Below, piece by piece: positions 11,183 through 41,122 of a stretch of DNA of 64,000 nucleotides (the stretch's first letter is position 1; the number at the start of each line of letters is the position of its first letter). The stretch is from Riptortus pedestris (lineage: Eukaryota; Arthropoda; Insecta; Hemiptera; Alydidae), in assembly GCA_019009955.1 (NCBI GenBank), contig CM032231.1:92091001-92155000 (forward strand), given 5' to 3'. A model generated the notes under the pieces. It saw only the letters and a program-made list of their open reading frames with translations. It was not told the DNA's origin and did not search any database. The translations under genes were made by a program, and so were the position numbers.

Positions 11183-12769
11183 TACAAATTTTTATATGTA
11201 ACTCAGTCTTCCAATACTTTGAAGTTGATTGCTCAGATATACGTACTTGTAGAATACATTTTTCTTCCTCAATAAACAACAAATACCAAGTGATGGTGTA
11301 TGCCTATGCACATGCATATGTGTGTGTCTATATATATATAAAGGCTGTAAGATTAAATTAATTGCAGTATATAGGGTATACATTTGGACTGTAAACACAG
11401 ATTCTATACAACTGCTCTAAAAAAAAAAAAGTTTCTTTTCTAATGTCTGTTTAGGAATCATTAAAGTTTTTTTTATTAATACAGCTGCAAAGCTAGGCTT
11501 CAAAAATTGGTAAGTTTTTACTTTAGTTTTTTAACTGATAATATTATGCCATTATTAGAAGTAACTCTCCACTACCAAAACAAACTGTTTGGAATAATAT
11601 GAATGGTTTTATTTCAGGATGTTTTGACTGCTCATGACAGTCTTTTTTAACTAAAGACTAGAAGAGGTACCAGTGAGAAGGACTATATAATAACCAAGTC
11701 CTGAAGTAGAGAAACTCTTTTTACAAAAGAGTTCGTTTTTTCATTACTCAAGCCGATTCCCAACAACCATCAATATGAAGTATTTCAATTAATACTGCAT
11801 TATAATTTGCGTTGTGTAATAATAGGCCAATAACCTTTCTAGTATCTGTTTCCAAAAAATGGATCAAAGTCATATCCACATCATTATAGTCAAAATTATT
11901 AATGTCAGCAGTACATCAGAGGTCAAATAAATAGTTTGCACAGAAAAGAGGAGAACCTTTTTTATTAGTTCCAACTTTATATTAGTTCCAAAATATTTTG
12001 GAACGAATAACAATTATTCTTAGTGACTATAATAGCCTCTTGAATTGATTACTGAGATGCAATGAATAAATCTAATTTTGGGAAAGTTTAAGGATTAATA
12101 ATATTTTACAAATAAAATAACATTATAGAAATGTAAATAACCCATTAAATCTTATATAAGCTACTCTACAGATTTTTGTCACCCTTTTTGATAAGCCGAA
12201 TCACATTAAGGGCAGATAACAATCGTGTGTATGTCATAAATATTTTTAAAAGTATAAATTTTATTTGTAAAACTAGATTTGTTATTATTGATGTGGATTA
12301 TCAACTAAAATAATGATGTATTATTCACGATAAACAGATATGTTATTATTCAACAATACTATTTTTAATATTCTTTTTATGACCTTTCTCTCATTATTTG
12401 TTGGGAGTCTGTAGGTGGAAACAACTGATTTAAGAAACAAACGTTTATTCAGAAATTTACTATTTGTAGCTACTATCAGCTAAAAAATAAAGTAAAAAAT
12501 AATTACAATTTCTTTAAAGCCAAAAAATAACAACAAACGAATTCAACTAAATTAGTTTGAGGGAGACAAAAAAAAAAAGGAAAAAAAAAGAGAATGAGAA
12601 GGAATAACTCATAGCTCAAGGGAGAATGTATCTGCTAACTAAAAGTTAGTAAATGCTGTACTATTAAAAATGGTAGATGTGCTTATGAAAGTTGTCATAT
12701 CTTGGTTTCTCTTAACCATCTCATTAGTTACATAAAAAAAGAAGGAAAAATGTGTTTTTCTCTACTCAC
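11183..12769. other. AT-rich sequence between mariner and the last syntaxin exon, no gene seen
   Basis: Low-complexity AT-rich DNA. It may include the 3' untranslated region of the anchor-A transcript. I could not choose among the many possible AATAAA signals on the minus strand. Confidence 0.6.
12764..12769 (-). promoter_or_regulatory. Candidate splice donor just after the stop codon of anchor A
   Basis: On the minus strand GTGAGT follows the TAA stop by two bases. If used, it would remove an intron from the 3' untranslated region. Supported only by the match to the donor consensus; no acceptor has been assigned. Confidence 0.45.
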
Positions 12770-12853
12770 GTTTTAAAAGTCAAGATATCCAACGAGGGTC
12801 GAGGCAACAATGAGGCCGAGAACCGTAAGACATATTATGATCATAATCTTCTT
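12770..12853 (-). CDS. STX1A: Syntaxin-1 terminal exon with canonical anchor A
   Basis: This exon has acceptor CGAGCAG, preceded by a 15-nt T/C tract, and 27 codons including TAA (12773-12775). It encodes [18 protein letters not shown] followed by TLVGYLDF and stop. This is very close to the standard syntaxin-1 anchor of insects and molluscs ([13 protein letters not shown]). A single Cys sits at the cytoplasmic edge. Directly after the stop the sequence reads AAC then GTGAGT, a good donor site. The exon may therefore end at 12770, with further 3' untranslated exon(s) downstream. With the donor only two bases after the stop codon, such a junction should not trigger nonsense-mediated decay. Confidence 0.93.
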
Positions 12854-15800: not shown

Positions 15801-18800
15801 TTACTGATCTAGCAGGAAAGTGTAGTGAATATTTTAAGATGTCTACACAACCCCAGCTAACATAATTTTGTGCTAGATCTTCTGTTTTGGCATGGTTTAA
15901 CCCCAAACTGTATAACTGTGGAAATGTGTAGACAACACTTATTACACAAACTGAACTGTTGTATAGCAAACAAACAGCAGAATAAACTAAATATATGCAA
16001 ATCACAGTCAAAGTGTTAAATAGAGTAACGAATAAAAAGGAAGTTTTCCTTTACTTAGTTCTTAAAATAAAAGGACACATTGATACTATGAAAAATAAAA
16101 CTTATTATACCACTTTTATTCGGTATTAACAATCCATTAAATGAAATAGGTATTTTGAGAAAATCTATATTCATAAACAAAAAGTCTAAAAATTCCTAAT
16201 CAAACAGTATAAATAATACTTCAATTATTTAGTAGCTGAAGATGAATTTGAGAAGAAAAAAATTTGATTTATATGCCTAAAACAAAATGATGATTAAAAA
16301 TAAAAAGCAATTTTCTAGTTCCTCATGGTTTCAGAGTTTTTAGAGTTCACCAATTTTACATTGTCATACTTTTATAAAGATTCTTAACAATATAAAATGC
16401 CCATTTCTTTAGGTGGGTAATTATGAGAAAATATACTTACTGAAATGATTAAAATAATGCTTACTACCTAACAAATACATTACCCATTAAGATATAATTA
16501 CCTTATGTGTTTCTGTATTTTGTTCGTAAATGCCCTTGGTACCAATTAATATTTCGTGTTTTTAAATGCTTATATACAATCAAAGTGATAATAAAAACAT
16601 TACTAAGAAATAACGAGTATTATATAAAGAGATAGCAAAAAAGAAAGTTTAATAAAATTTAAGTGTGATTAAAATAATTTAAAAATCAATAAAATAAAGT
16701 GTATTTTGCTAAATAAATAAATAACTATTTATATAGATCTAAATGTTTAATCAATAATAAATAATTCAAATTAAATAAATAAAAACAAAAATATTTTTAC
16801 AGATACAGAGCAAGCTCTTAGCTTGAAATTGTTCTAGTATTGATATCAGTTCTAAAATACTGTCAGTGCAGATCTAAGAGCTTGCATTTAACATTCAACT
16901 ACTTATGTACATATTAATACATATAATACATAATACTATAATTTTTTCTTTATAAGTTTAGTATATCATACAAAATATCATACAATAGTAAATTTATAAA
17001 TATTTGTGGCAGTTGAATTTTTTTAATTATTCTGCCTAGCACCATAAATGCTCCCAAGCTGAAATGATTAACATAATAATAACTTTTTAATAAGAAAAAG
17101 GAACACATAATACCTTTAATACTTGAACTTAATAGTCACATTTTTGTCAAAAAGGACATTATAAATAAATAATACTTGCAAATGAACTCTTTAAAATAAT
17201 GAGTAAATCAAATGAGAAAATAATTAAATCGATTGACTAAAATTTTTTCAAAGACTCAAGACTACGATTATTTGCAAAAAGTTTCTGACAACTAACTTGG
17301 TAAAAGTTTTATTTTTTAATGGGGTTTTCACTATTATGATAACATTAATGGTTGAATAAAAGCATTCCTATTTGTATTCAGAATACATTATCTAAAAGGG
17401 AGAGAGTGAGAAGGAGAGAGGAGAGAGGGGGAAGGGAGAAAGATCAGTACAAAAATTTATTGCTTATGAATAAAAGCTAAAAATAAAAATTGTCAAAGGG
17501 TAACTCAACCCTTAATGATTTATAAAATTCTGGGAGTAGCTTTTGTAGGAGGTTGCTAGAAAAGAATGAAAGAAATAAAAGTGCTTGTCGTAGAAGATCT
17601 ACCGTAGAACACATTTTTGATGAAGCACAATACATCAGTTCAAAAAATTCAGACAAAAAAATGTGAGTTTAATGTGGATCTGCATAACCTTATTACCTCA
17701 GCATTGGCTTAGAGATTGAAACATTGTTGGATACTTATGGTTCTAAGGAAAACTGAGAAGTTCGTCAGATTGAGATAAAGATTGGGTGGGAAGTAGAATA
17801 AGTTGAAAAGTCAAAAATCAAAAAATGTCCCTGAGTATAAGAACAGAGACTAGGATTATGTGAATAAGATACTCCTTCTAAAGAGGTTACAGAGGAAAGC
17901 TGAGCTCATAAAAATCATCAGATGAATATACATGAATTGTAGTAATACATTCACCAAGAACAGGAAAGTAAATTAAAATAATGTTATTAATAGAATATGC
18001 TAACAATTATTGAAAATTAAATTTTCAATGTTTTGGAATAAAACATAAATTTTTCCAATAAGTAAGTCCAAATATTGGAAATCCTAATTATTTTTTAATA
18101 AATAAGTTCCTATCATTACTTATATATTTTCCTTTAAATAAATAATATCTTTGGATTCATAGTTGTTAAAGCAGGAGATTTCATTCTCATTTAACATCCG
18201 AAGAAGCAACAATGTGTGTGATTGCAAGCACTTCAAAGATTCGAACTGCATGATCCAAGTTAGTTGCAGATTTAAAAAAAAGTATAATTTAAAAACTATT
18301 TGAAATTTCAACTTTGTTTCTGGTGCTCGCATACTACATAATATTTGGTAATGCAACGTCCCTTTTCATTCAATTGACTAATACTTCTCAGAGAGAATAG
18401 ATAAAAACTTTTGTTTGAACTAGCTAAATACATGTATTTATACAAATAGAACAAAGATATGTTCTTAAGAAACCTTAAAGTGCTATGTTATTGTCTCTGA
18501 CAAATATCAAAGATTACATTGAATATCATAGCAAAATTCTATAGTGCTACAGGAAAATACATTTCGTAAATATGACAATTTTCCTAAAAGAATCAGCATT
18601 AACACATCTTCATAGTCATTTTGGTCGGAAGAAAACAATCAGCAGAACAAGATTTACTCCTTGTTTTTCTTCATTAGCCATCAAGCACCTAACTGCTCCC
18701 TTTGCAGTTAAGAGTGGGACGAGATTCCGTAAAATACTTGTCTTAAGTATTGATTTTTTCATTGATGTTCATAATATAAATACGAAGAGCAGAATAGTTA

Positions 18801-21800
18801 ATATCAAGAGACTTAAAACGAGGCAGATGATGATGTATATTTTTTTCTGAAAGCAAACAAAAAAAAAATTAATTAAAAACTTAATAATGAAGTAACTTTT
18901 GTTAGATGTATAACAAATTCTAGATCATCATTAGAATTTTAATCTAAATCATGTTCATCATAAATAATGGAGCAGTTTCACATAACATAAGAAATCAATA
19001 TTCCTCTAGGCAGAAAACCTGGATGCTTAACAAATTTCATGCTGAATATAGTTTTCAATAATTCAAGATTTAGATGGAAATTTTCTTAGAGCAATGTCAA
19101 GTCGATAATTTTATACTTATGATAATGAAACTCATTATTTAACTTTTTGAAGTAGCAAAATATTAGGAGTTTGTTGACCATATAGAAGAGACAACTTAAA
19201 TGGGGGCCCAGTAGGAAGTTGAAAAACAATATCTTAATTTCTACACATCAGGTCAAAAAATATTATACAATTTACTAGGTGAAATTATTAAACATGAAAA
19301 ACAAGGCAAAAGCTCTGTACCTATTTTATGTATCCTTAATAGGAACAAAGATATTTGACATTTTGTGTGAACGTCCCCTGAAAACCATTTTCCCCTAAAC
19401 ACATATATGTGCAGACACGCATGTGTGCATGTGCATACACACACACAAAATATATAAAAAAGAAGCTGATGTATTGGATTTAACTTGCATTCCTTAACTC
19501 CAAAAAGGAGCTTTAATCTATAAATTATGTCCCTTTCTCGAAACAGCTGTTTCAACTGATTTACAAACCTTTCTGATGATCATCAATTTCTGGTACTTCT
19601 ACTTCTAACTGTCTGTGAAGGTTGATCCTGTTCATTTCTGGGCGGTATCATTTCTTCCATCAATTTTGGTAAAGCAACCTAAAGTAAATGATTTCTCTTG
19701 AGTTGTGATCCATTGTCCAGAATGACTAAGTTTGATTGAGTTATTTGGAAGTTCCACAAGAACATTTCCAATGGCCAGCTCCTTTAGCTCTAAAATACTC
19801 TTTCTTTAATCATAGTAATTCTTTTGTCAATCTATAATTTACCTCTCTTTTTCTTTGAACTGTTGAATATCCACCTGACTGACAATTTTGAAATCTTTCA
19901 TGAAGCATAGGATGTTCTTAAATTCCTTCCGTACAGCAACTCGGTTGAGGATACCCCAATAGTTTTAGTGCACACCAATAATCCAAGGTTTCAGTTCATG
20001 TTCTTAAGCAGAATTCTTTAGTTATGACTTCAGCATTCATTTTGGATGGACTGTTAGTATACGTCAGATCGAAAAATTGTATAGAAGCAATCTTATTGCA
20101 AATTAAATTTACTATAAATATTGTTCTATACGCATTTTTCGTATACTAAGTATTAACCGAGATATTTGGATTTTATAGCATTACACTTTCAGTAAACCAC
20201 CACTCCTACTAGTGTCATATTAATGATAAGCTGTTACTACATGAACGACTTCATTACAAGATTAAATGCCAAATATTGTTTTCAACAAAGCTTTATTATA
20301 CGAGATACAAACAAATACTTTCTGTTGACCCCCTCCCCTTTTTATTTGTTCTTGGATTACTGAAATCTGAGTGATTGAGATAGAAATTATTCAGATTAAT
20401 TTCAAATTACTCCACTAGTTATAGCAAATAGCTTTCAACAAAATTAATATGTCATATTCTGATATATTTCATTAATTGTTTGTTCCGGTCTAGAGTAATT
20501 CTATCTATTCAGCGCTGTGTAGTTGGCTGCACTGTTTGTTTACAATTCAGATACTTTCCGTTTTAGATATTATTAACTTTTAAAATGAGTTAATGATTTC
20601 TTATTACCGTTTGTATTTATTCCCTTAACATTCACAGTGGTGTTACCAGTATGTAGATTTATCTGATGTAAACCTTCCCGTGGGAAATCTGCTTAGTTTA
20701 CACATCCCCTGCATGACGGACTTTTTCAATAGAACTCATAATAATGGAGATATTATGAATTGAAAGAATTCCCCCTCTGACACCCCCCCCCATTCCTCGT
20801 TCAGCTTCAGCCATTAACACATATGATCTTTAGTATTGAATGAAACAATTAAATATTGAGTAAGGTATAGATCAAATAAACCTTTTTTTTTAAATTAAGA
20901 GTGTAAAATCTTATACAACGCCTTCATCACACAATATACGTAGGTGTGTGTACCTCACACAGAAAAAGGACGATGCCAATATTTGGTATTTAAGCTTCAA
21001 ATAAAGTGGTTCATGATATAACAGCCTATTGTTAATATGACGTTAGTAGGAGTGGGGTTTACTGAATACTCAAAACTAAAAAAATGCAAGTTTCTCAGTT
21101 AATATTTATGATAGAGAAAATACATATATGACAACATTTATAGACAATTACATTTGCAATAAGATTGGTAATAACAATTTTTCAATCCAGAGATATTTAG
21201 AATTTTCTAAATTCTTCCCATATGATTTCAGCTGTTAATGAACTTGATGCTTAGTTTTACATGGAACATTTATACATCGAGTTTGGTAATGATTAAGTAA
21301 AAACTGCTACTGCTAGAGCAGTAACAGACAATATTTTCATCATCTACTAAGTAGGATCAATAGACATTTGAAGAAAAGTTTTGTAAATCATGTCATGAGT
21401 ACATGATGATAGCCCAGTTACTCAATAGCTGATTTCCCTTTTGAAAATCTGCTAAAACATCAACAGTCACCCAATTATCAGTATCTTTTCATGTAACTTT
21501 CTACTGTACTCTGAGAAGTTTTTTTTTCAATTCCTTGAAAGCTTTGAGTTGCTGTGTAAGTCAATATTTTCTTTAGAAAACCCTTGCTAGGTCTGTGATC
21601 ACCTAAATTGGTCACAAATCTTATCGGCTGGTTTTCCATGCCTAGGAACTGTCGCAATTCATGCACATTTTCTGGGGCTTACATTTCTCAAAAGGGTTAT
21701 CCTTTCTCAGGATTGGGTTTTAAGGCTTGGTCTGAGTTAATATTTCTAAGAAAACCACACTTTGTGATTTATGTTGAGTACTAGATTTCTTCCGTTGAGT

Positions 21801-24800: not shown

Positions 24801-27800
24801 TGACCACCTTCTCCTCAATGAAATAAGGTATTGATTCCAGTTCTGATGTTCCAAAAATAAAAATAACAACATCAACAACAATAAAGAAAAAAAAACTGTT
24901 TTTTATATAAAATACTTTAAAAAATCGACAAAACATTCAGAAATGAAAAAACAAAATAAAAAGTCAAATAAAAAAGAGAGAACAGACTGTTGTGTGCATG
25001 TGAAAAAGATTTTTTGCATTTAATATGTTGAAAGATGCTATCAAAGTGAGCATTGTTTTTTTATAGAAATCAAGTGCCATGAATATTGTTTTAAAACAGA
25101 ACCTGTCAATCAACTAATTATTTTCATTAATACATTTAGGGTGGATATATATTTATAAAAGAAGTAACTGAAAAACTATGGTTTCTCAGAATAATTCATT
25201 AATACTAAATATGTTCAACAGTTTTAAACCATTATCCCTGGAACTCAGAATATCCAGATCTCTCATGGTAATGTTTTAAAATTGTCATAAATGCTCAAAA
25301 CTAAAAATTAATAATGAGGAGCATTGGTCCTCAAAAAAAAATACCCCACAGCCCTAATATTTAAACTTGTAGGTTACTATAAAAAACCAATAAAACAATA
25401 TTCTTTTCTCAAAAAAAAGTTTCACAAAACAATGACCAGGAAACTATATTAAGGAAAAATCCTTATAAGATAAGAAAGCAACTACCATATAATAAAATTA
25501 ATAATAAGAAATCAAAGGTGTTTGTATTTCAAGATTGTTGTCTAAATTTTGTGTCCTGTGGAGATAGTTACTGAATATTAGAATAAGAACAGAAACGTGC
25601 AGATATTTTTCACAAAAAAAAATGTTTAACTCAATATAGTTTAAGTTATAGTTATTTATTTTTTTTTTTTAGTTTATCTGGTAAACTACTACAATAGTAA
25701 TAGATATTACGATATGAGAGAAGTAAATGATTAGGTCAACAATACAAATACACACTTTTTGCATCAGATATTATAAAAAAAGGAAATAAAAAAATAATTA
25801 TGAGAGTAAATTTGAAGGAGAAATAGTAAGTTAAATTTCACCTGTTTATATTAATACTGGCTGAACTGAACAAAAAAAAAATGAATCCCTCTATTTGTCA
25901 TTTTTACACTTATGAATTTCAACAAGAAAAAATTAATACATCAACATATATTTTCAAGAGACTAATAACAAATCCATAATAGCTCCTGCGAAAAGTGAAA
26001 ATCACAATCTTTTTACTTCAATCAATCATGTCAATATTTCAGTTTGATCCAATGCCTTAATATAAGCTCTAATCTCAACTTCATATGAATTCAAACTTAG
26101 TTGAGAGTATTAAGCAATTTGCTCAGATAGTCATATTAAAAGAATTTTTTGGTAATAGAGTTTTGAGAAACAGGAGCAAGTTTGTACTGTTTTAGAGCCC
26201 TAGATATCTTTTGAGAAAAGGAATTCAATAAAACAGCCATTATGTAGCTAAAGAAAGAATAATATGAGAAATAACTGAGTATAATAACACAAATTTTATA
26301 TTAGAATCAAACTCAGCAAAATAGTTTTCTTTTAAAATTTCAGACTTTTATCTTACAAGTCACAAGGAAATAAAGAAGGGACAAAAAAAATTTGATGGCA
26401 AATTAAAATGTCAAAAATAAATGAGAAATAAAAATAACCAAGTTATTAGAGAAGGTGCAAAATAATATTAAAGTGAAAACAGAAAGTATGTACCTAAACA
26501 GCTCAAAAGTTAGATGGAAGCAATGGAAGAAACTTTTTTTTTTTTTCAGAGCAAGGAGTACAAAGGATTTTTGGTGCAGATGTGGAATTTTAACAATAGA
26601 CTATGGCAGAAATTATCCAATGGATAGTGAAAATGCATGTGTTCAGGAAATAAAAGGCGGTGTTTTTTAGTCTAAATTTATATGGTTCTATGTGAGTATA
26701 GGTCATTCCAAGATTTGGTTAAACCAAATTAATATAACAAAATATATGTATATATTTTAATTAATGATTATTCTGTTTCTACCAAGGTCGTTAGCAGACA
26801 AAAATGTTTTATTACATTAAAAATGTTTACAGTATTATGGAGCATTAAAGGCTTTGAACAGTGCATGTGTGTGTGTGTGTGTGTGTGTATGTGTGTATGG
26901 ATGGATGTATTATTTACATATATATTCTCTAGAATGTTCTGTAGAGAGGATCCAAAAATGTACATTCTTCTGACATTGTAGAATAGGCAATGTACTAAAA
27001 CATGTTCTGCTGTTAATTTTGAATTACCATTTCGGCAGGCTGGATAAAAATATTTTTTAGGAGATATGTATGTGGGAGTCTTGTGTGACCAATTCTTACA
27101 CGAGTCAGTAAGATTTCTTCAGATCATTTACTTCTGGGTGTTGTTTCCCAAATCTCAAAATCTCAGTTCCCACTTCTGATATTTATGAGTAGTTTAAAAA
27201 GTGTGTGATGATAATTGAATAAATTTAAATTCTGAAGATTAATAGGGTGGAACACTGTGATATAACATCTAACTCTTATAAGCCACAGGCCTGTTAGAAA
27301 GAACTCATATTGATATGTACATTAATAAGTTCAAACTCAGAGAGCATAGTCTTTGTTTAGTTCAAAATAACCTTCATGTCATTAGTAGTACATATTACTT
27401 GAATGAAACCTGCCTTTGGAGTTTTAAATATACCATGAAAACATTGCATTATTTATTTGCACATAAGTTCAACACACTTAGGAACCATCCTTAATTGGCT
27501 TATACACTATCTCCAACTTATCCTCACCAGAATTCAAAATTGAAAGTGCATAATTCTATAGACAGCTTTCAAAAGAGCCTCAATGCATTTAACTCTTTCA
27601 TAAAGTAATTTACATTCTTTTACATTCAATCCTTTTAGACTTTGTCATCAGCTTTGAATGTCTGAATTGTGGACTGTCTGTTGATAAAGAGGATCGTGCT
27701 ACTTAAACTACATTACAAAATCCATTCATTCATCAATCGAAAATTTAGTTTCCAATTATGAGACAATACTATCTATTTCATAGAAATTCAAATTTGAATG

Positions 27801-30800
27801 CTACTCTGATTGCTGATGTAAATCACACGGAAGCTAATTAATGTAATGCCTAATCACAGAATTAAGCTTAGCTTAAAGGTTTTCAGCCTTTATCAAAGTG
27901 AAAGTGTTATTTATACACGAAAGATAAACAGCAGATAGAACCATTTATCTACCTAAGAGGACAAAAGGTAGGTTATTATTGTCTTTTATTCATTAATAAT
28001 AGAATTAACAAATAATAACAAAAATTTTAGTAATTTTCAAATTACAAAAGGATGAAGAGAAAATTATAAATTATTATTTAAAGAACAAATCTTGGAATGA
28101 CCAGAAGGTTTGGCTAAGAATAAAAATAAAATAAAATAAAATGAAAAAGAAATGAAGTTGAATACTGCTTACCTGTCGTGCACTCCGCTGGTATTCTTCT
28201 GCCATATGAAGCTCTCCTTTTCCTTGAAGAACAGCATCAGCAGAATTTTCAACATTGTACTGAATACTGTCGATGAGCTCTCCCTATTTGAATAAGGTGA
28301 AGGGGAAAGAAGGCACAGAGAAAGAGAAGAAACAAGCAAAACACCACAAGCATACGCACACACCAATATGTTATATATAATTAATAAATGCCAAAAAATA
28401 TTTATAATTATTACAAAAGAAAAACCCATGTGGGTTAATTGTAACAATGAAACCATGAGAAACAGTGTTGTTAATAACAGAAAGACAGATTACAACAAGG
28501 ATGAAGAATGTGTAAGAAGGGAAAAGGGAGGAAAAAATAAAAACAAAATTAAAATACTGCCTTATAAAGAAAATAAAACAGAAATATTAAAACTTAAATT
28601 AAAAAAAAAAAAAACACAGATGTCACTAAAGTGACAGTGACGCACTAAACACAAAACATGTCTCGCCGTGCGTGAGGACACTCACCCGGCGTGCTTTGCT
28701 TTGATATTTCAGGGCTTTCTTTGTATCTTGCGTTGCAGTCTGTACATAGTCCACTGCGTGTTCAACATGGTATTCTATACGGTCGATCATTTCTCCCTAT
28801 TTTCAGTATGGTGAGAAGGCATGGTGAAAGAAAGACAAACAAGAAAATGTTAGTAAATAATTAGTCAGATTAGAAACAAAAATATACCTAAAAGCATTTA
28901 TTACAGAAAAATACCAACCACCTTTTAATAATAGATGTACAAAATTAATGTGTTAATATGTCAATGTGAAATGTTACCTTTGTAATAACTGATAACCCAT
29001 GCAACCTTATTTTTAAAATTGTAGGTAGAACCAGAGGAAAGTTTTGCACCACATCTTTATTTCTGACAAATAATCAAAGTAATTACTAAGGCATCATAAA
29101 TTTCTATATTCTAAGGTGGGGCAGAGAGGGAGTAAGTATATATCAAGTAATTATTAAAACATCATTCATGTCTATATTCTCTGAAAGGGGGGAAGCCAAC
29201 CAGTTTGGAATTAAAATGAATAACAATTCACAAGAAATGATGATGAGGCTTTAAATAAGAAAATTGAAAATCATTAGTTGCCATCATCCTATCATCGTCA
29301 GATAGCAATAGTTATAATATAAACACTTCAGACTAAAAATATTAATCATTTTATGTTTATGGTGGGAATCTGCTTCACCTGGTGATACAAATGTATTTAA
29401 AGCTCAACTCGGCACAATGAAGTTTTATGACTCGAATCATAAGGGAGGCCTGAAATTAAAAATAGTGATATTTTGTTTCGTATTGGTTTTACGGCAAACA
29501 TGCACATGAAAAAAGTTGTTTATTTTGTTATTTAGAGTAACTTTTGTTATGTTCACTTTTGTTGTATACTGAAATATAAACGAGAAATACACTAAAAACT
29601 AAAGCTGGAGCCACCAATTTTATTGGGCACTAACGATTGAACCGAAATTAACATAACTCGGTATGTGAATTAGCATTAATTCTTCCATGATTATAAGCTA
29701 TATTATAACTTTTAGGTTCAAACGGGAGTGGGGGAAGCCTGAAATAAAAATCGCGATATTTCATTTTCTATTTGTTTTTCCACAAACGTGCAGATAACAA
29801 AAGTTGTTTACTTAGTTATTTAGAGTAACTATTGTTTTACACATTTTTTCATATAACAGTGTATGTAGCAAGTATTTTGCATAGAAATATTGATATGCTC
29901 AACAATTCTTTCCAATATGAACTACCTGGTACCTCACCTGGATAAATTAATTCAAATCTTTGTTAATATTTTATCCTTAATAATTCAAATCTGTGATATT
30001 TTTTTAACACCAGTAACAGATTGCACCAAGGAAAGTATACTGCCCCTCCCCCTCCCTTCTCTTCTCCCAAAAATTAAGTCATGAGAAACGCCATTTTGCC
30101 CTAAAGTGTATTAAAAACTTTATTTAATTAAAACGTGAAAAATGATTTGTACAAACAATATAGTATTGTGAAGACAATGTAATCAGATTTGTTAATATAA
30201 TTTAATGTATTACAAGATTGAGATCCTAAATGCGTGGTAGGTTGGCACCACTCGGCCAAGGGTGGGTTGGGGATACTTCCTTTGTCCTATCAGTTCAGCA
30301 GCTTCCCACCATAAATATAAAAATATTGAGGACAGTGAAGCCTTACATAACAAATAATTTTATTATTAACAAATCCACAGCAACGACGGGTATAAACTCC
30401 CCCCTGGGATGGGGAAAGGTCAAAATATTGTGCAAAATAAAGCCTTACCAAAAAAATACCATCACTCAGCCTCAAATGAATTACTGGCCAAAGCCGGGTA
30501 ACTTAGCTAGTATATATATTAGGTGAATCAAATATAAACGAGACTTTTTTTTTTTTAAATTTATTTTAATTTTAAATGCAAAAAATAATATAGCTTATTT
30601 TTCTACATAATCCCCTGACTTGGAAACACATTTTTCCCAACGGATTGGTAGCTTTCCAATTCCTTCCATGTAGAAAGATGCAGGTCTTGTCTGCAGCCAA
30701 TTGCGCAATAGGCTTCAGCCTCACCATCACTGTCGAATCTTTCGCCTCCTAAAGCTTCCTTGAGAGGGCCAAACACATGAAAGACACAGGGTGACAGGTC

Positions 30801-33800
30801 TGGACTGTAAGGAGGGTGTTCCAGTGTCTCCCACCCCAGTTGCTCCAATTTTTCCCTAGTCATGGCTGCTGTATGGGGGCGAGCATAGTCATGGAGAAGA
30901 ACCATTTCTCTGATCGGTAGGTCTCGTCTTTTGCGGCGATATGCAAGTCGGATTTGCAACACGATCACGACCCCCCACAAACTGTTTATGGCATGCAAAC
31001 ACTCTGGCTCGCGAAAGTGTCTTTTCCCCGAACTGTGCAATCAATCTCCTCAAGATTTCGGCCGGTTTTACACCTTCTGCGGCGAGATACTTAAGTACGA
31101 CACGTTGCGCAGTCGACGGGGGTACCTCTTCCTCCAACATCGTCACGGTGGACACCGAGACGATCGAGGTGGCGAGATCACGTGCTTCCCCTACTCCTGA
31201 CTAACCTACCCAACAACAAAAATGGCGGGAACGTTCTCCCACCACTACTGTGCCCGAAAGGCGAAAAGTCTCGTTTATATTTGATTCACCCACGTATTTG
31301 TCTGTTAATGCTCTAGCGGTCACAATTGTTGTTTGATCGTTACCAAACTAGGTATGTGTTAATTTTATATAAAACTAAAGATCGGGAGGGGAAAGATGTC
31401 TTATTACTGCTTGTAATTATTAATATTCATAGTTGTGTTGTGATACCAGTATATAGATTTATCTATTGTTAACTTCACAAGGGAAATCTGCTTAGTTTAT
31501 GCAGCCCCTGCATGAGGGACTTTTTATGAGAAACACAGTCTTTGTTTAGCTTCCAGTTAACACATCTGCAAATCTAGAAGCTTTGTAATATTTTAATTTA
31601 GTGTTTGGCTAGGCTGAGAATGGAACCTAGATCCAGGATATTTCTCTTCAGTTATAAGGGTAGACATCTCAGTGAATATTGTGTGCTTGAATTAATTCTA
31701 GTATTTTTATTTATTTATTTTATTTATTTTTTTTTCGAAAATTGAGGTTTTATTTTAGAGAATTGGTTTTAAATATATATTATTCAAAGAATTGTCCAAC
31801 ATTAGCAACTACCTTCTCCCATCTTTCTGCCAGCATACACACACACACCCTGCTTCATGGGTCGGGAAGGCCCAAAAAAAATGCCTCTAAAATCTGATTG
31901 CACAAACTCTTTTCTTGATTTTCTAGTAGTTAGAATTCGCTAAATGGGAAACTGCAGCAGATCGTCTACAGTAAATCTATTCTAATGTCCGGCCATGACA
32001 TCTAAACACACAAGTGGCAGGATGTGATAATATAAATAAATCGATGAATAAGAAATGAATTTTTATTAAAGGTGTCTACACCTCGTACTCAAAAAATTGT
32101 TTGCTGTGTTAAAACAAAATTACTATTTAATTAATGATAATTATGATAAACTTATAAAAAATTAATGACCAGTTTAACAGATCTAATAAAAGGTTTCCCA
32201 GGAGCATTGAAAGCTGTTATCGCACCTACAGTGACATTACCTCGTTAAAAATTCATATCCCTCTCAATCACCTTGAACAGTGATATACAGGATTTAGCCG
32301 GTGATGTGTTTGGAATATGTCAGAGAAAGCTGAAGAATCTGTATACCTAGAGTAAAAACATTTTAGGGAATGCTACAAAATCCAAATATCGATGATCCGA
32401 CATACATTGAAAGATTCAAGAAAGCACTCTTCGAATTTTCATTCGAACATTTGTGATTATTACAAATAGTGTATTTTCAAAAAAAATCATGAAAAATAAT
32501 GCTGTGTAGTTTTTTAATGTATGTGTGTGTGAGTGCACACGCTCATATATTTGTTCAGTGTTTATATATGTACACATAATCATGTCCGGTTGTGTGTGTT
32601 TACATGTAGTGGCCAAACATTAAAATTGATTTATCACTGATTGTAGCCAAAATTCAGGAAATTGTGGACAGAGGATCTGCTTGGATTTTCTGGTTGATGA
32701 ATTCTGGCTCCTAGAATGTCAAGAAAAGGCTTAGAGCAATTGGAATTTGGAGGCAATTTTTAGACCTTCCTGATCCTCAAAGGAGGGTGTGGGAAGTAAG
32801 ATTTGTCTTCATAACAAGCAAAATGTTGCTCAGAGATTGATCGAAACAGGCGGTAATCAGATAGAGCAATGAGGGGTAGGACCTCCTATTTGGTCGTTTT
32901 TATGTATGTTTTGGCAGGTTTTGACAGCATGGACATGGAGGAAAATGATTTTAATATCACCAAATGATGAGAAACTATCACCATTTATATATTCAGGCAT
33001 TTTTTTCTTTAATGCGTGGGTGAAACGCATTTGTTGATCACAGTAACGCTCCCCCATGATTGTTTCATTGAGTTTGAGCAGCTCATAATATATCACACGA
33101 TGCTGATCCTATCAAATACAGAGCATAAGCTTGGTTCCATGGATATTTGATTTCACTATTGATGTTACTGGTTGACCAGGCTAACCTAAGACTTCCACTG
33201 TTTGGGATTGTCATAATTGATCCACTTTTTGACTCGTCACATTTTGATGAAAAAAGTCCTTTCCTTTTCTGCCTGTTCAAGCAGCTGTTCACAGATGCAG
33301 AAAATCCTTTCCCATCCTTTATTTTTAATTCATATGGCACCATATTTCCCTGCTTTTGGATACTTATTCTCATGTTCAGGCATTCGCTGACTGTTGAAAA
33401 GTTAACTCCCAATGATTCAGTCAAATCTTGGCTTTCATTTGACAAGGAAAAGACTACTAATTATATATATATATATAAAAATAAGCTAACTATTAATCAA
33501 TATATGAAATAAATTGCAAAACTTTCCTAGTTCTCAAATATATTATAACCAAGTCACCAACAAAACACCTCATTAGTTCATTGAATTAATTAGAAATCAA
33601 CAAAAAGCATGTGTTAAAGTTATTGTGCATATAAAACTGTCTATTATGTTCTTAGTCAGTTAGTTGTATTGTCCTCATCATGAAAGTTAGCCCTCAGTAA
33701 TTAAATCAATTTAACCAAATAGAAATAGTCAGAGCATTCGCTCCATCATTACAGTGCCTCCAGAGTTGTTGTCGATAAGGCTGTCACCTGCTTACCCCTC

Positions 33801-36800
33801 AGAGTAAGCTGGACACTATGCCACAGCACTATAGCTGCACTGGTGTTGAGCACTCTGAAAGCACTGCACACTAACCTAAACTGGTAGTAGAGAAAACGTG
33901 GCATTAATTCATTCTGTCATTAAGAAATACATCGATACAGAATAAATGAAATGATAGGCAATAAAATTCAATCAAAAATCATTCTTCTTATTCTGGACCC
34001 AATATTATTTATATATTCTTCAAATTTTATGGTAAGGGTCTCCAATTAAAAACCGTTTTCTTTGGAGGAAACTTTATTAAAACTGCCCTACATGTTTTGT
34101 GGCTTATTTGTCACCTCTTCAGGGGCTATCCCTTTTAAAAAAGAAATAATCGATTTTTAATCAGCTGACTTAACCTACCTCGGGAATCTCTCACTACCAT
34201 TTACCTCCACTGTGAGGACAGTCGCAACGTAATGTAAAAGGTAAACGAGCACTTCAGAAATGTGAGTAGAAATTTATAATAAGATTTAATAAGTATATCA
34301 TTGATGTAGGCACCTACTAATACATTATTTAGCAAAATAATTATTAAGGGATGTGGTAAATTAATGTTATTAATAATAATTTTTTATATAATTCTTTTTT
34401 AAAAGGGATTGCCCCTGAAAAGGTGGCAAATAAGCCACGAAACATGTTGGGCAGTTTCAATAAAGTTTGCACCAAAGAAAATGTTTTTTAATTGGAGACC
34501 CTTGCCATAAAATTTGAAGAATATATCAAAAATCATATTAACACTATTTTAACATGAATCATCTTAATATTCCAATTTTGTCTCAATAAAGAATTAAATT
34601 GAATAAAGAGAAATATAATTCTGTTTTGGCACAAGAAACAGTAATAAAATGGTAAAAGTAACTAACATAAAATGGAATATTAAATAGAATTAATTAAACA
34701 TCAATATAGTAACATTCGCAAACACAACGCTTAGGGAAATTTGCTAATGTCTTGAAATGATAAGCAATGTTGAACGAAACATCAAAGAAGATAGAATGAT
34801 ATTTAAACAATAACAAATTGATGCCTTGGAAGCAAGCAGCAACAAAAGTTCTATTATATGTAATAATTAATTTGAAAATTCTACAATGGTTGTGATCAGC
34901 TATACGTAAAGCAGTTATATTTATTTAGTGCTTTCCTTGGTTCTTTTCTGTTTTCATGTAATTTCCAGCATATTCATCAATAGATAAGTCATCAATATTT
35001 AATTTAACCAGCAATAAAATATAATGCTGAAATAACATCATGTGAAAAATTATATTATTCACTCACCATGTTTGAATAACACTTGATAAAACAATAAAAA
35101 TAAATGAGAGTTGGTTTTTAAAGGATTTATTAAAAATTAACAAAGAAGTTTTGATATATATCCATAAACTTGGGAGGGGAGAATCAAAATAACAAGTTTG
35201 TTTAAGAAAATTTAAGTTAAAGTTTTTATAGTATCAAAAATAATAGACTTTTTTGTAAAAATTTTATTGTTTATTTGTACCTGACTTTCAACAAGCATGG
35301 CCATGTCCATGAACATGTCATGGAGTTCTCGAATAGAGTTTTCTAATTTAATGATGTCTGCATGTCTCGCTTCGATGTCAGCCAGCGTCTGCTTTGCTTG
35401 TTGTGTTTCCATTATTATCTAAAACAAAACAGATAATTAGTAAGTTTTTTTTTCCATTAACATTACATAAATAATTTCTAAGTAACTAAAACTACCTACA
35501 CTATCCTAGAGTAGTAACCCTATTACTGGGTATTTTATTACTACTAATATATTACACCTTTTGGTATAATAAATTGTTTATAGATGTAATATATTTTTTG
35601 TAAACAACTACAATGTCTAGTGAAAAGGTAATTGTATGCCTAATATTTGGTAAAAACTTAATACCAGACAAATAATTGTGCTTGAAATCAAGCATCTATT
35701 ATTAGCCTATTTATATTAATGCTCTTGAAACTAGCTACAATTTATGAATTTTCATAAACTATTTGAAACTGCATTTTGGCTCTTCTCTAGGGGTAATGTA
35801 TTTTGTTCTCTTCTATTCAATGTTGCACTGCATTTCACATCAATGTAAACCTTGATTTGCACCTCTAAACGTACAATAGAGAAGATGGTTTGGCATCCCA
35901 AAGACAGTTTAAGAATGTCTGTTCAATTAATAATAAAAATAAAATTACAACAATGAGAAATATACATACTCCTTGAGTAAAAACTGCTGGATTTCCTTGC
36001 TCCAACATCTCTTCTAATTCTTCATTTGTTGTAGTCCTCCCAGCTGAAATAAATCAAGTCATTTGATGATCATAAATCCGTATAACAAAATGATGACTGT
36101 GTTTAGTTGTAAATTCAATAAAAAATAATTTCAGCTATTTTATTAGAGATATGAGCAAGCCTAAGAATTGCTGAGAGCCAGTCCCACAGAAGCCATTATT
36201 GTTTAGTGTCTTATAGGTTTCCAAGGAAATCAAAACTCCAGTTAGTTAAATACCTGCAATACTAAAGAATTAGCATGTACAATTCAGAAACATTCTATCA
36301 AAAGTCATTCCATCCACTTTTCTTTATGGAAGCAGTATGAATTTTACGCACTTGGATGATGATAGTCCTATTTTGTTAGCTCCTAAGGAGCCTACTGGCA
36401 TTTTATTCAGATTATTATTCCACTTGGAGCAAAATTTTTGGTGAGCATGCCCTTCATAAATACAGTGTTTTGAGTGATTTAAAAAGTCCAAAAGTAGCGA
36501 TTTTGACATTGTTGGATGACGATGACGCCTACATCCATGGAAAAACAACTTGCTATCTCCATACTTTTGAAAGCATAATATGGAAAAAAAGTTCCAACTG
36601 AACTTTATAAAAGACAGCAATAAAACTGAAAAATCAATTCAAAATAATGCTCGTCCGTTACAAAAAAAGGTCAGTCCTATATCAAATTGTGACTGTTAAT
36701 GAAACTTGAAAAATGGATATATTTCAAGCCTTTGCATAAAAAAAGAAAATGGTGATGGCACAATATCTAAAACACAGTTTTGTCAATCTGGGTAGTCACA

Positions 36801-39800: not shown

Positions 39801-41122
39801 TTAATTTAGAATTTTTATCATTTAATAAATAAAGCTTTTGAAAGTCCAAAAAAATAGAAACCATGGGAATTATCTCATAAAGAAGCTAATTACTTACGAG
39901 AGTTTCAATAAAATAAAAACAGCCCCAATACAAAACTAAAACCCAAAAATATTTTCCAATTAAAAAATAGGAATTTTATGATAAAATGGGATTTTTATGA
40001 TCCAAAGCCTGATGAGATAAATTGTTATAAACACATGAAGCTATTGGTGACAGCACTCGAAAAAACAAAAACAAAATCAAAAGTACTTTTAATAATGTAA
40101 GAGAAGCATACTAATTTCCAGTTGCCGCTGTATCCTTCCTTTACATCTCTCCCTGTAGTCAGTTTGCGTTCTATTGTATTCTGTCATTACCTCTACAAAT
40201 TTCCTAGATAATGTAGAATGCTGTGTTTTACGTATCCTTAAGTCAGCAGAAGATTTATTCGTATGCTCTTCTTGCTCTATGTTTTGTTCAATAACTGAAA
40301 ACCAAAGCAAACAACATAAGAAAACATAGTACAAATGTAATCTATAATTGGGGTAAAGATAATTAAGGTGAATTAAACTGGGTAAATTAATTTTTAGAAT
40401 TATCTTGTTTGATAGCATACTAATTTTTTGATATATTAAAAAATGCATTAGTATAATTAGTACAAATTTTCATATGACTGGGTTTTCTTGGTGAATGATA
40501 TATCTTTTATAAATACATGCAAGTCTAATTTAAATTTTTATTGAGATGATTAAATGCTTAAGATAAGTAACTTTTGTTGTAAGAGAACTCAAAATGTTAT
40601 TTGCATTCTTAGAATTACACTTTGTAAAAGAAGCAAAAATAAAGACTTGATAAGTCCATCGTGCAGTGGCTGCATAAATCAGATTTTTTTTTATTTTTTC
40701 TGAAGTAGCTAAAAAGAGGGATCACTAGAAAAAGAGCAGCCTGATTTTATTTGACATATTGGCAACAAAAGTTATTTCCTAAGTATTATAATAAATTAGT
40801 ACTGTTTTGCAATATTTTGTTTGATAAAGAACATTATTAATTATTCAATTAACTGCAATTCGTTTTCTAAAACACCTCAAATATACAAGATCTTTGTTTT
40901 GTCATGAAATGAATCTTGTACAAGACTTGACAGTCTTCTCTTCATATGAGATTAAACACATTTAAAAAATTATAATTAAACTCTGAACTCCAATTCTTTA
41001 TGAATTGTTACAAAATATTATATAAAAATAATAACAGAATCAGTTACCTTTAAGTTTGGCACGAACTTTATTTGCAGCTCTTTTAATATCAGCCATAAGG
41101 TCTTCCAGCTCTTGTTTGACCT
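12773..41122 (-). CDS. STX1A: Syntaxin-1 gene, 3' part (residues ~70 to C-terminus), with alternative exons
   Basis: Eight exons on the minus strand together encode a plasma-membrane t-SNARE of the syntaxin-1 family, which pairs with SNAP-25 and synaptobrevin to drive synaptic vesicle fusion. Using one SNARE exon and one anchor exon, the spliced reading frame is open for about 220 residues. It covers the Habc domain from helix b, the linker, the whole SNARE motif and a single C-terminal membrane anchor. Rat syntaxin-1A is 288 residues, so about 70 N-terminal residues are missing. I found no exon for them between 41123 and 64000, so the gene probably starts beyond the window. Every junction is AG/GT and the phases agree. 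Two 37-codon exons offer alternative second halves of the SNARE motif, and two terminal exons offer alternative anchors. Family identity rests on near-verbatim motifs such as [19 protein letters not shown] and [19 protein letters not shown]. Closely related syntaxins 2 and 3 are less likely, but paralogue naming cannot be settled here. Confidence 0.95.
12854..18768. other. Region between the two anchor exons, no gene seen
   Basis: This 5.9 kb stretch is intron for anchor-A transcripts and contains the 3' untranslated region for anchor-B transcripts. Apart from a purine-rich tract it holds no recognisable element. Confidence 0.65.
17397..17442. repeat. GA-rich purine tract
   Basis: About 46 nt of almost pure purine (GAGA and GGGG runs) on the plus strand, hence a CU-rich tract in the syntaxin transcript, about 1.3 kb downstream of anchor exon B. 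Polypyrimidine-binding proteins could act here; that is speculation. Confidence 0.8.
18769..18846 (-). CDS. STX1A: Syntaxin-1 alternative terminal exon with hydrophobic anchor B
   Basis: This terminal coding exon of 26 codons including the TGA stop has acceptor GCTTTCAG preceded by a T-rich tract. It encodes [18 protein letters not shown] followed by LLFVFIL and stop. The KK-I-x-III-C opening matches the other anchor exon, but the segment is more leucine-rich and ends on hydrophobic residues with no lumenal tail. This is a typical tail anchor. It is phase 0, so it can follow either 37-codon SNARE exon. The 3' untranslated part must run to lower coordinates; I could not fix its end. A chance hydrophobic frame is possible, but the match of KKI-III-C together with a precise acceptor and phase makes that unlikely. 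Confidence 0.85.
   Translation of the reverse strand, partial: KKIYIIICLVLSLLILTILLFVFIL
19560..20040 (-). other. Possible 3' remnant of a retroelement
   Basis: Less AT-rich than its surroundings. Minus-strand fragments such as [19 protein letters not shown] resemble the C-terminal tail that follows integrase in Ty3/gypsy elements, where a repeated NR-x-HLR-type motif is common. The stretch is separated from the clearer pol remnant at 21470-22600 by two copies of the ~0.7 kb repeat. A single retroelement split by those insertions is plausible, but the call is weak. Confidence 0.3.
20058..20727 (-). repeat. 0.7 kb AT-rich repeat family, reverse copy (5' part of unit)
   Basis: Reads, on the minus strand, the family's left end (GTCATGCAGGGGATGTG then AACTAAGCAGATTTCCC), the GAGTGGTGGTTTACTGAAAG module and the core segment down to the GATCTGACGTATAC box. 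The part of the unit that carries the TA microsatellite and the right end is absent. Confidence 0.8.
20741..21452 (+). repeat. 0.7 kb repeat family, forward copy with partial second core
   Basis: Begins inside a core (GGAGATATTATGAATTG, the CCCCC box, CAGCTTCAGCCATTAACAC). It then has a joining segment with CTCACACAGAAAAAGGACGA, followed by a second complete core and the right end ACTCAATAGCTGATTTCCC. The joining segment is shared with the copy at 45486-46088, so this head-to-tail arrangement was probably copied as a unit. There is no TA microsatellite here; the expected position (about 21325-21330) has only ACAGACAATATTTTC. Confidence 0.8.
21470..22600 (-). pseudogene. Decayed Ty3/gypsy-type pol remnant (RT / start of RNase H)
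   Basis: The minus strand shows pol-like blocks in the usual order: an N-terminal stretch before reverse transcriptase with the [15 protein letters not shown] motif, scattered RT fragments, and then a clear connection motif [11 protein letters not shown] with downstream [12 protein letters not shown]. Many stops and shifts interrupt it and no active-site motif survives intact. It is old debris of an LTR retrotransposon; LTRs were not found. The 20741-21452 repeat copy abuts its downstream side. Confidence 0.7.
24450..24560 (+). repeat. Possible worn tRNA-derived SINE
   Basis: The sequence has a B-box-like CAGGTCGAATCCCAAC preceded by tRNA-like GTTAAGGTGCAGCAATCATT. It then runs into AT-rich sequence with AAATCAATAGAT. 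It does not match the SINE copies beyond 46 kb in detail. Low confidence. Confidence 0.35.
26866..26897. repeat. (GT)n microsatellite
   Basis: About 13 GT units with a few ATGT interruptions at the 3' side. Confidence 0.9.
28173..28283 (-). CDS. STX1A: Syntaxin-1 alternative SNARE exon 2 (divergent second half)
   Basis: This 111-nt, 37-codon, phase 0-0 exon has acceptor AAATAG before GGAGAGCTC and a GTAAGC donor after CGACAG. It encodes [18 protein letters not shown], then [19 protein letters not shown]. It aligns without gaps to the sister exon at 28686-28796. Layers +1 to +3 (I, I, V), +5 (V) and +8 (A) are kept; +4 is Ser for Ala, +6 is Gly for Ala and +7 is Leu for Thr. The basic end KARR is replaced by SARQ, so the polybasic patch is weaker. 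It follows a long pyrimidine tract (minus strand, about 28285-28330). The frame is open with no stops and both splice sites are intact, which argues against a dead duplicate. It would be in frame whether used instead of, or together with, the sister exon. Confidence 0.9.
28284..28372 (-). promoter_or_regulatory. Pyrimidine tract and TG/CA element upstream of alternative SNARE exon 2
   Basis: On the minus strand a GTGTGTGCGTATGCTTGTG stretch (about 28345-28368) is followed by a ~45-nt pyrimidine tract and the AAATAG acceptor. UG-rich and CU-rich motifs next to an alternative exon are typical binding sites of CELF-type and PTB-type splicing regulators. The role here is inference. Confidence 0.45.
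28686..28796 (-). CDS. STX1A: Syntaxin-1 alternative SNARE exon 1 (canonical second half)
   Basis: This 111-nt, 37-codon, phase 0-0 exon has acceptor AAATAG before GGAGAAATG and a strong GTGAGT donor after CGCCGG. It encodes [19 protein letters not shown], then [18 protein letters not shown]. Heptad positions after the zero layer match neuronal syntaxin-1: I, I, V, A, V, A, T, A for layers +1 to +8. It ends in the basic juxtamembrane run SKARR, which joins KK of either anchor exon to give KARRKK, the region known in syntaxin-1 to bind PIP2. This is the conventional exon. The sister exon lies 402 nt downstream. Confidence 0.95.
28797..29440. other. Intron upstream of alternative SNARE exon 1
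   Basis: The ~45 nt just upstream of this exon (CTTTCTTTCACCATGCCTT and the AAATAG acceptor) resembles the matching stretch upstream of exon 2. This suggests the exon was duplicated together with its splice acceptor. Otherwise no feature is seen. Confidence 0.55.
29442..29862. repeat. Pair of ~130-bp direct repeats
   Basis: Segment 29442-29570 (GGGAGGCCTGAAATTAAAAA onward, with AAAGTTGTTTATTTTGTTA and TTTAGAGTAACTTTTGTT) recurs diverged at 29731-29862. The two are separated by 160 bp of unrelated sequence. Family unknown. Confidence 0.75.
30230..30515 (+). repeat. Dispersed repeat tail with CCGGGTAACTTAGCTAG end
   Basis: GC-richer segment ending in AAAGCCGGGTAACTTAGCTA. The complementary motif TACTAGATAAGGTACCCGGT starts the segment at 41228, so both look like ends of one dispersed family in opposite orientations. 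It contains two copies of a phrase near AATATTG-GACAGTGAAGCCTTAC and AATATTGTGCAAAATAAAGCC. Class unknown. Confidence 0.5.
30522..31290 (-). mobile_element. Internally deleted mariner (non-autonomous derivative)
   Basis: A 769-bp element bounded by 27-bp terminal inverted repeats starting GGTGAATCAAATATAAACGA (30522-30548 and 31264-31290). On the minus strand it keeps the transposase start ([21 protein letters not shown] and [13 protein letters not shown]; 31155 to about 30950). It then jumps to [19 protein letters not shown], and on through [13 protein letters not shown] to the C-terminus at 30603. The middle of the transposase, including the first catalytic Asp region, is missing, and the joined parts are in different frames. 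The right side continues directly into a copy of the 0.7 kb family at the place where that family normally has its TA run, so the element appears to have inserted there. Confidence 0.9.
31294..31527 (-). repeat. 0.7 kb repeat family, partial reverse copy
   Basis: Contains the TTTGTCTGTTAATGCTCTAG box, the GATCGTTACCAAACTAGG box and the family end CTTAGTTTATGCAGCCCCTG. The core between them is shortened. The deleted mariner lies immediately to its left, at the position where other copies carry the TA run. Confidence 0.8.
31780..32000 (-). pseudogene. C-terminal fragment of another mariner transposase
   Basis: On the minus strand the last codons read [17 protein letters not shown] and stop (31833-31780), the standard C-terminal signature of mariner transposases. 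A poor match with stops continues upstream to about 32000. It could be the displaced end of the element at 32640-33445. Confidence 0.7.
32416..32640. other. AT/GT-rich spacer within mariner debris
   Basis: TG-rich low-complexity sequence (TGTGTGTGTGAG and similar). No feature supported. Confidence 0.4.
32640..33445 (-). pseudogene. Old, heavily decayed mariner transposase (middle and C-terminal half)
   Basis: Starting at 33445, the minus strand reads the second helix-turn-helix ([18 protein letters not shown]), [11 protein letters not shown] and LNRQKRKG. The position of the first catalytic Asp is reduced to [33 protein letters not shown] block lies at about 33090-33030, and [13 protein letters not shown] near 32850 is the third-Asp region. 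At least one frameshift and several stops are present. The N-terminal ~100 codons and any terminal repeats are missing. It belongs to a different mariner lineage from the copies at 9.9 and 30.5 kb. Confidence 0.8.
33446..34010. other. Intronic sequence, no gene seen
   Basis: AT-rich. A short TA run is at 33463-33477. No conserved coding segment. Confidence 0.5.
34011..34526. mobile_element. Foldback (long inverted repeat) element, MITE-like
   Basis: Two ~135-bp arms, 34011-34145 and 34392-34526, are inverted copies of each other with a few mismatches. Shared landmarks are AATTTTATGGTAAGGGTCTC / GAGACCCTTGCCATAAAATT and ACATGTTTTGTGGCTTATTT / AAATAAGCCACGAAACATGT. A ~245-bp AT-rich spacer separates them. 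There is no coding capacity. A transcript through it would form a long hairpin in the syntaxin intron. Confidence 0.88.
34527..35280. other. Intronic sequence, no gene seen
   Basis: AT-rich DNA directly downstream of the first-half SNARE exon. Nothing recognisable. Confidence 0.5.
35281..35418 (-). CDS. STX1A: Syntaxin-1 exon, first half of the SNARE motif up to the zero layer
   Basis: This 138-nt, 46-codon, phase 0-0 exon has acceptor TTTTAG before ATAATAATGG and a GTACAAAT donor. It encodes [20 protein letters not shown], then [20 protein letters not shown] and MLVESQ. The last residue aligns with Gln226 of rat syntaxin-1A, the central ionic zero layer of the SNARE bundle. The splice junction therefore sits exactly at the middle of the coiled coil. 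Everything C-terminal to this point is supplied by one of two alternative exons. Confidence 0.96.
35970..36043 (-). CDS. STX1A: Syntaxin-1 exon, linker before the SNARE motif
   Basis: This 74-nt exon has an ATTTCAG acceptor and a GTATGT donor. With the base carried over from the previous exon it encodes [20 protein letters not shown] and then VFTQG. This matches the acidic linker of syntaxin-1 (GRTTTSEELEDMLESGNPAI in rat), which includes the LE residues (here LEEMLE) associated with the closed conformation and Munc13-dependent opening. The exon ends in phase 0 after Gly. Confidence 0.95.
36044..40111. other. Intron between the linker exon and the Habc helix c exon
   Basis: A 4.1 kb AT-rich intron. 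The 37.6-38.7 kb part is less AT-rich and may be an old, unrecognisable repeat. No feature can be supported. Confidence 0.5.
40112..40294 (-). CDS. STX1A: Syntaxin-1 exon, Habc helix c and linker
   Basis: This 183-nt exon is bounded by a TTTCAG acceptor and a GTATGC donor. It encodes [19 protein letters not shown], then the strongly conserved [17 protein letters not shown] block, a [19 protein letters not shown] stretch and LEI. This corresponds to helix c of Habc and the start of the linker in neuronal syntaxins. The split codons at both ends join cleanly to the neighbouring exons, giving Val at the 5' side and Thr at the 3' side. No frameshift or unusual residue is seen, so this looks like a functional exon under strong constraint. 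Confidence 0.96.
41048..41122 (-). CDS. STX1A: Syntaxin-1 exon, Habc helix b
   Basis: This is a 75-nt exon. The acceptor reads TTTTCAG before AGGTCAAAC and the donor is GTAACT after AAACTTAAAG. It encodes [20 protein letters not shown] and then AKLK, matching rat syntaxin-1A from about residue 71. The first two bases complete a Lys codon split with an upstream exon that is not in the window, and the last base starts a Val codon finished by the next exon. This region forms part of the N-terminal Habc three-helix bundle, which folds back on the SNARE motif in the closed, Munc18-bound form. It is the most 5' exon I can see. Confidence 0.93.

Follow-up and report, generated by a model that had tools for sequence, protein, structure and literature searches.

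The window analyzed here, a 64,000-nucleotide stretch of the Riptortus pedestris genome (C4:92091001-92155000 in a genome of 1.08 Gb), carries on its minus strand the 3' part of Syx1A. The product has a Habc domain, a SNARE motif with a zero-layer Gln, and a C-terminal anchor, and the gene is a syntaxin-1 (Syx1A, Qa-SNARE). Coding exons 4 (41048..41122, 75 nt, placed by its boundaries and translation), 5 (40112..40294, 183 nt), 6 (35970..36043, 74 nt), and 7 (35281..35418, 138 nt) all lie on the minus strand, and exon 7 encodes the first half of the SNARE motif, with the zero-layer Gln as its last codon and phase 0 at its end. A search of the own genome placed coding exons 1, 2, and 3 outside the window, about 78-80 kb past its edge (C4 92235437-92235405, 92234731-92234645, and 92232606-92232507, respectively), and in that genome the coding sequence spans 131,665 bp. 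Exon 7 is followed by two exons of 111 nt, both open and in phase 0-0: exon 8A (28686..28796, minus strand), which encodes the second SNARE half in its canonical form, and exon 8B (28173..28283, minus strand), which encodes an alternative version of that half. They are separated by an intron of 402 nt (28284..28685, minus strand) with ordinary GT-AG sites. Each is entered in phase 0 after ...VESQ and has good splice sites (acceptor aaaatag and donor CGG/gtgagt for A, acceptor caaatag and donor CAG/gtaagc for B), such that the replaced segment starts immediately after the zero-layer Gln and ends before the anchor. Two anchor exons lie further downstream on the same strand: exon 9-T1 (18769..18846), encoding a 25-residue anchor and a stop, and exon 9-T2 (12773..12853), encoding a 26-residue anchor of the canonical type and a stop. 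The initial annotation had described the tandem, length-matched A/B pair, and its coordinates, spacing, reading frames, and splice sites are confirmed here; its exon set was incomplete, in that T1 went unmentioned although it lies within the span of 35418-12773 that the annotation itself named. All four combinations of A or B with T1 or T2 run from ATG to stop without an internal stop and encode 292-293 residues. A GTGAGT at 12764-12769 (minus strand), three bases past the T2 stop, may mark an intron in the 3'UTR.

The A and B exons of the window align without gaps over their 37 residues, with 15 identities (E 7e-6 within the window). Searching the window with 13 B exons, five A-type exons, and the exon of a Syx4-like gene as queries, the window's own A and B among them, we found no further tandem copies, as only A and B matched at E below 0.1. 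With core layers and positions numbered as in rat syntaxin-1A, the two exons have layers +1 (Ile), +2 (Ile), +3 (Val), +5 (Val), and +8 (Ala) in common, while layer +4 changes from Ala in A to Ser in B, layer +6 from Ala to Gly, and layer +7 from Thr to Leu, exactly as first proposed from the sequence of the window.

To look for exon B elsewhere, we searched a set of 5.8 billion proteins clustered at 90% identity, in which clusters may hide combinations such as B with T2 or others. When the query was the B segment extended by five residues of flanking sequence, three proteins were returned from three candidates, all full-length syntaxin-1 with exon B: P0005 (Nezara viridula), P0003, and P0004. 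A second search with the Nezara tail returned five proteins from 46 candidates, with P0006 (Phaedon cochleariae) and P0007 as new entries, and a third with the P0007 tail returned 13 proteins from 135 candidates. In this third search, exon B was present in P0007, Periplaneta americana, Cryptotermes secundus, Colias eurytheme (P0010), Aethina tumida, Callosobruchus maculatus (a protein of 209 aa), Galleria mellonella, Bicyclus anynana, and P0017, an open, genomic-looking frame that lacks an anchor, while P0011-P0014 combined exon A with a T1-type anchor. In total, exon B was found in 13 database records (P0003-P0010 and P0015-P0019), Hemiptera, Blattodea, Coleoptera, and Lepidoptera among them; the search was word-based, and its record list is not to be read as showing absence from flies or bees. 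The second exon, for which the initial annotation had suggested a search of other mollusc genomes, is present in these records of the protein set and is not an accident of this genome. The B isoforms are already catalogued in the NCBI annotation, where five of the records bear isoform names (X3 in Periplaneta americana, Cryptotermes secundus, and Aethina tumida, X5 in Galleria mellonella, and X4 in Bicyclus anynana). The exon-B proteins P0005, which is named Syntaxin 1A in its record, and P0007 match the Pfam Syntaxin and SNARE models above cut-off. Over the part common to all forms (230-231 residues), the window gene shares 227 identities with P0003, 225 (of 230) with Nezara, 219 with both the cockroach and the termite, 210 with Aethina, and 203 with Galleria. 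These values, together with the grouping of its exon B with that of Nezara (94/97 in the tree described below), place the DNA in an insect, probably a true bug (Heteroptera), rather than in the mollusc that the initial annotation had assumed. The exon order of the window recurs in Phaedon (A-B-T1, P0006) and in Colias (A-B-part of T1-T2, P0010).

The two exons differ in how freely they vary. The 37 residues of the window exon A are identical in P0011-P0014 and in Colias P0010, and five insect A exons are identical at 35-37 of 37 positions, whereas the 13 B exons average 20/37, which indicates that B is looser, yet constrained. The window B shares 41-92% of its residues with the 12 B exons of the other records, the closest being P0003 (34/37) and Nezara (29/37). 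When the window and 12 records were tallied (n=13, with P0017 left out), Leu was found at position 3 in all 13, in place of the Met at 229, and the Thr at +7 was replaced in all of them, by Leu in 12 and by Ile in one. Ala at +6 was replaced by Gly in 10 of the 13, layer +4 varied (Ser in seven, Ala in five, and Thr in one), and layers +1, +2, +3, and +5 remained Ile or Val, as layer +8 remained Ala. In P0017, a 14th and genomic B exon, layer +7 is Val and layer +6 is Ala. Over its last ten residues A carries a net charge of 4 and the window B one of 0, but the value ranges from 0 to 5 across all B exons, and so a loss of basic charge near the membrane is not a general feature of B. A simple sum of helix propensities did not show a weaker helix in B than in A. 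AlphaFold predicted, with moderate confidence, a single continuous helix from the SNARE motif through the anchor for a B isoform, and a similar structure for an A isoform save for a low-confidence break at 259-262; the alignments behind these two models were shallow (9 and 4 rows).

Several records speak for expression of exon B. P0003, P0004, and P0007 come from contigs of at most 2331, 1689, and 1209 nt, respectively, and encode B proteins without introns; P0011 comes from a contig of at most 1095 nt. Since the Syx1A coding sequence spans more than 131 kb, such short, intron-free contigs should be spliced cDNA, and we take the source code 'lgn' on the contig records to mean that they are read-archive assemblies. 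P0007, with B, and P0011, with A, agree at all but 17 of their 290 residues; the first difference is at 232 and the last at 266, none lies outside the exon, and the anchor is the same. Judged from the two sequences, this is what alternative exons look like within a single species or between two very close ones, and it comes near to proving alternative splicing directly. In all ten records that hold B alone together with an anchor, the anchor scored higher against T1 than against T2, by a margin of 10 to 57 points. The margin was small (10 to 12 points) for P0007, P0008, P0009, P0015, and P0018, and in plain identities the anchor of P0018 has 14 to T2 and 13 to T1. No combination of B with a T2-type anchor was found among the records from the 90%-clustered protein set. 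Exon A with a T1-type anchor occurs in four records (P0011-P0014), which shows that T1 is not private to B and that the choices of SNARE half and anchor are not strictly coupled.

Few fusion proteins have been studied as well as syntaxin-1, in which the second half of the SNARE motif drives the last step of fusion. Known systems resemble the arrangement in the window in part. In vertebrate STX3, as described in PMC11476516, exons 1-8 are common and exons 9-10 differ, making the C-terminal SNARE half and the anchor alternative between an epithelial or secretory form (STX3A) and a retinal synaptic form (STX3B). In the window gene, too, both the C-terminal SNARE half and the anchor (T1 or T2) come in two versions, and the likeness to STX3A/3B first drawn from the sequence, a swap of exactly this half in a syntaxin-1 gene, holds for the layout given there (PMC11476516). 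It differs from STX3 in being an insect syntaxin-1, in the non-canonical core of B (Gly at +6 in 10 of 13 and Leu or Ile at +7 in 13 of 13), and in that A also occurs with T1, the SNARE half not strictly dictating the anchor. The syntaxin-1 gene of C. elegans, unc-64, also has alternative 3' exons and two anchors, but according to PMC4946901 its exons 8a and 8b exchange the last 14 residues only and leave the SNARE motif unswapped; UNC-64A is described there as mainly neuronal and UNC-64B as non-neuronal, with conflicting rescue data. The duplicated exon 5 of SNAP-25, which gives two mutually exclusive splice variants according to PMC2581893, is likewise a pair of tandem exons in a SNARE of the same complex, although in another protein and another segment. 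In the open PMC literature, searched by titles and the beginnings of abstracts and with most subscription papers falling outside it, none of the matches listed described A/B exons in the syntaxin-1 of insects or other invertebrates.

We propose that in the 3' half of this insect Syx1A gene exon 7 is joined to either 8A or 8B and then to T1 or T2, with A+T2 predicted to serve the synapse and B+T1 other secretion, a reading that we hold to be very probable. As every splice choice is in frame, one gene could thereby encode as many as four proteins, each of 292-293 residues. All would have the Habc domain and the N-terminal half of the SNARE motif in common, and splicing would exchange the anchor and the half of the zipper next to the membrane, with A and B presumably used in a mutually exclusive manner in the cell. 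By analogy with STX3A/3B and UNC-64A/B, A+T2 would be the synaptic form, and B+T1 would be a second plasma-membrane syntaxin acting mainly outside fast synapses, in epithelial or gland secretion. The B zipper, with Leu at +7 and often Gly at +6 near the membrane, may alter the choice of partners or the energetics of final zippering. Most likely, the gene yields one syntaxin for the synapse and another that acts at the plasma membrane, probably outside neurons; the parallels with STX3A and UNC-64B would favour a non-neuronal form at least as strongly as a tuned synaptic one, fusion speed or partner choice being what the initial annotation had thought might be tuned by splicing. A natural, long-conserved swap of a SNARE half within an otherwise identical protein offers a ready-made test of core layers +4 to +8 and of the anchor, and where insect syntaxin-1 has been treated as one protein, two may have been conflated.

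That B is instead a neuronal variant, spliced in by certain neurons (photoreceptors, tonic, or peptidergic neurons) to change the speed or the Ca2+ dependence of release, is possible but rather unlikely. Syntaxin-1 is the neuronal syntaxin, and STX3B provides a precedent for such an exon at a special synapse, but according to PMC11476516 the retinal form of STX3 is the one closer to syntaxin 1, whereas B is the one further from the canonical A. We consider it very unlikely that both exons are included to give a doubled C-terminal SNARE half. Double inclusion would be in frame, as A and B are both 111 nt, a multiple of three, in phase 0-0, and the translations of P0006 and P0010 do hold both. 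These two are probably prediction errors, given the unrelated N-terminus of P0006 and, in P0010, the extra residues and the truncated T1 followed by T2; moreover, all other records with an anchor have one exon only (B in ten, and A in P0011-P0014), and an insertion of 37 residues would break the register between zero layer and anchor. Less likely still, to the point of being hardly credible, is that exon B is a decayed duplicate without function: it evolves much faster than A, but it is open, has the same length, aligns without gaps, conserves its core positions over four orders, and occurs in transcript-sized contigs.

The origin of exon B was approached with a midpoint-rooted tree of 37 columns, in which one of 19 inner branches is well supported and which included the exons of STX1A, STX2, STX3A, STX3B, STX4, and UNC-64. 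All 13 B exons cluster together, separate from A (92/79), and within this cluster the window B groups with Nezara, P0003, and P0004 (94/97) and the moths and butterflies fall together (98/92), and the vertebrate and UNC-64 exons are all placed with A, which separates B from both forms of STX3. This topology suits, though not firmly, a single duplication predating the divergence of Blattodea, Hemiptera, and Holometabola, and suggests that B would have arisen independently of STX3A/3B. The alternative that the A/B pair was inherited from the bilaterian ancestor in the same event as STX3A/3B appears improbable. The replaced segment is the same as that reported for STX3 (PMC11476516), but STX3A and STX3B both fall with the A-type exons in this short tree of 37 columns, and B is no closer to STX3A (on average 15.2/37) than to A (17.6/37). 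A Syx4-like paralogue (L007 and L010) lies at about 41.736-41.740 Mb of C4 in the own genome, with GDLINRIESHVGNTTEYVYEAHREMKKAVEYQRKSRT as the corresponding exon and, seemingly, an intron in the matching position behind the zero-layer Gln. That exon B was copied from the Syx4 gene is conceivable but not supported: although the tree places the Syx4-like exon beside B on a long branch (87/86), the window B shares 14/37 residues with it and 15/37 with A, and a profile of B has syntaxin-1A as its best match among solved chains. The window B resembles STX4 in carrying Ser at +4 and Gly at +6, but B is an exon of syntaxin-1, and the own Syx4-like gene has Thr, Ala, and Met at +4, +6, and +7. Returning to the reading of A and B as alternative exons of Syx1A, we offer tentatively, as an idea with slightly less than even chances, that winged insects inherited a splice switch older than the divergence of cockroaches, bugs, and Holometabola. 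Through it, the syntaxin-1 of neurons would also be made as a second syntaxin of the plasma membrane, with its own anchor and an altered, partly STX4-like zipper near the membrane, and it would have been invented independently of STX3A/3B. If true, this switch would explain how a single gene serves both synapses and general secretion, and would suggest that the same answer by splicing was arrived at twice, once in insects and once in vertebrates.

With regard to splicing control, 21 tests of the sequence around the exons for motifs of the CELF, Fox, Nova, and PTB type and for U-rich motifs gave no significant result (lowest shuffle fraction 0.085), and none of the four named types was significantly enriched in the 402-nt intron. 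Docking and selector pairing of the RNA appears unlikely for 27600-29400, where the 12 inverted pairs are short (12-23 nt) and mostly AT-rich, and we judged them to be probably due to chance. Fragments of transposable elements also occur on the minus strand of the window. At 10473-10991 lies a transposase piece with the HTH domain of the Mos1 transposase, and at 9915-10229 a further transposase piece without a Pfam match, which, judged by a sequence motif, looks like the tail of the same mariner-type protein. A fragment at 30603-31040, in the intron before exon A, has a weak match to DDE_3 (21.1 bits against a cut-off of 28.6) and looks like a Tc1/mariner-type remnant.
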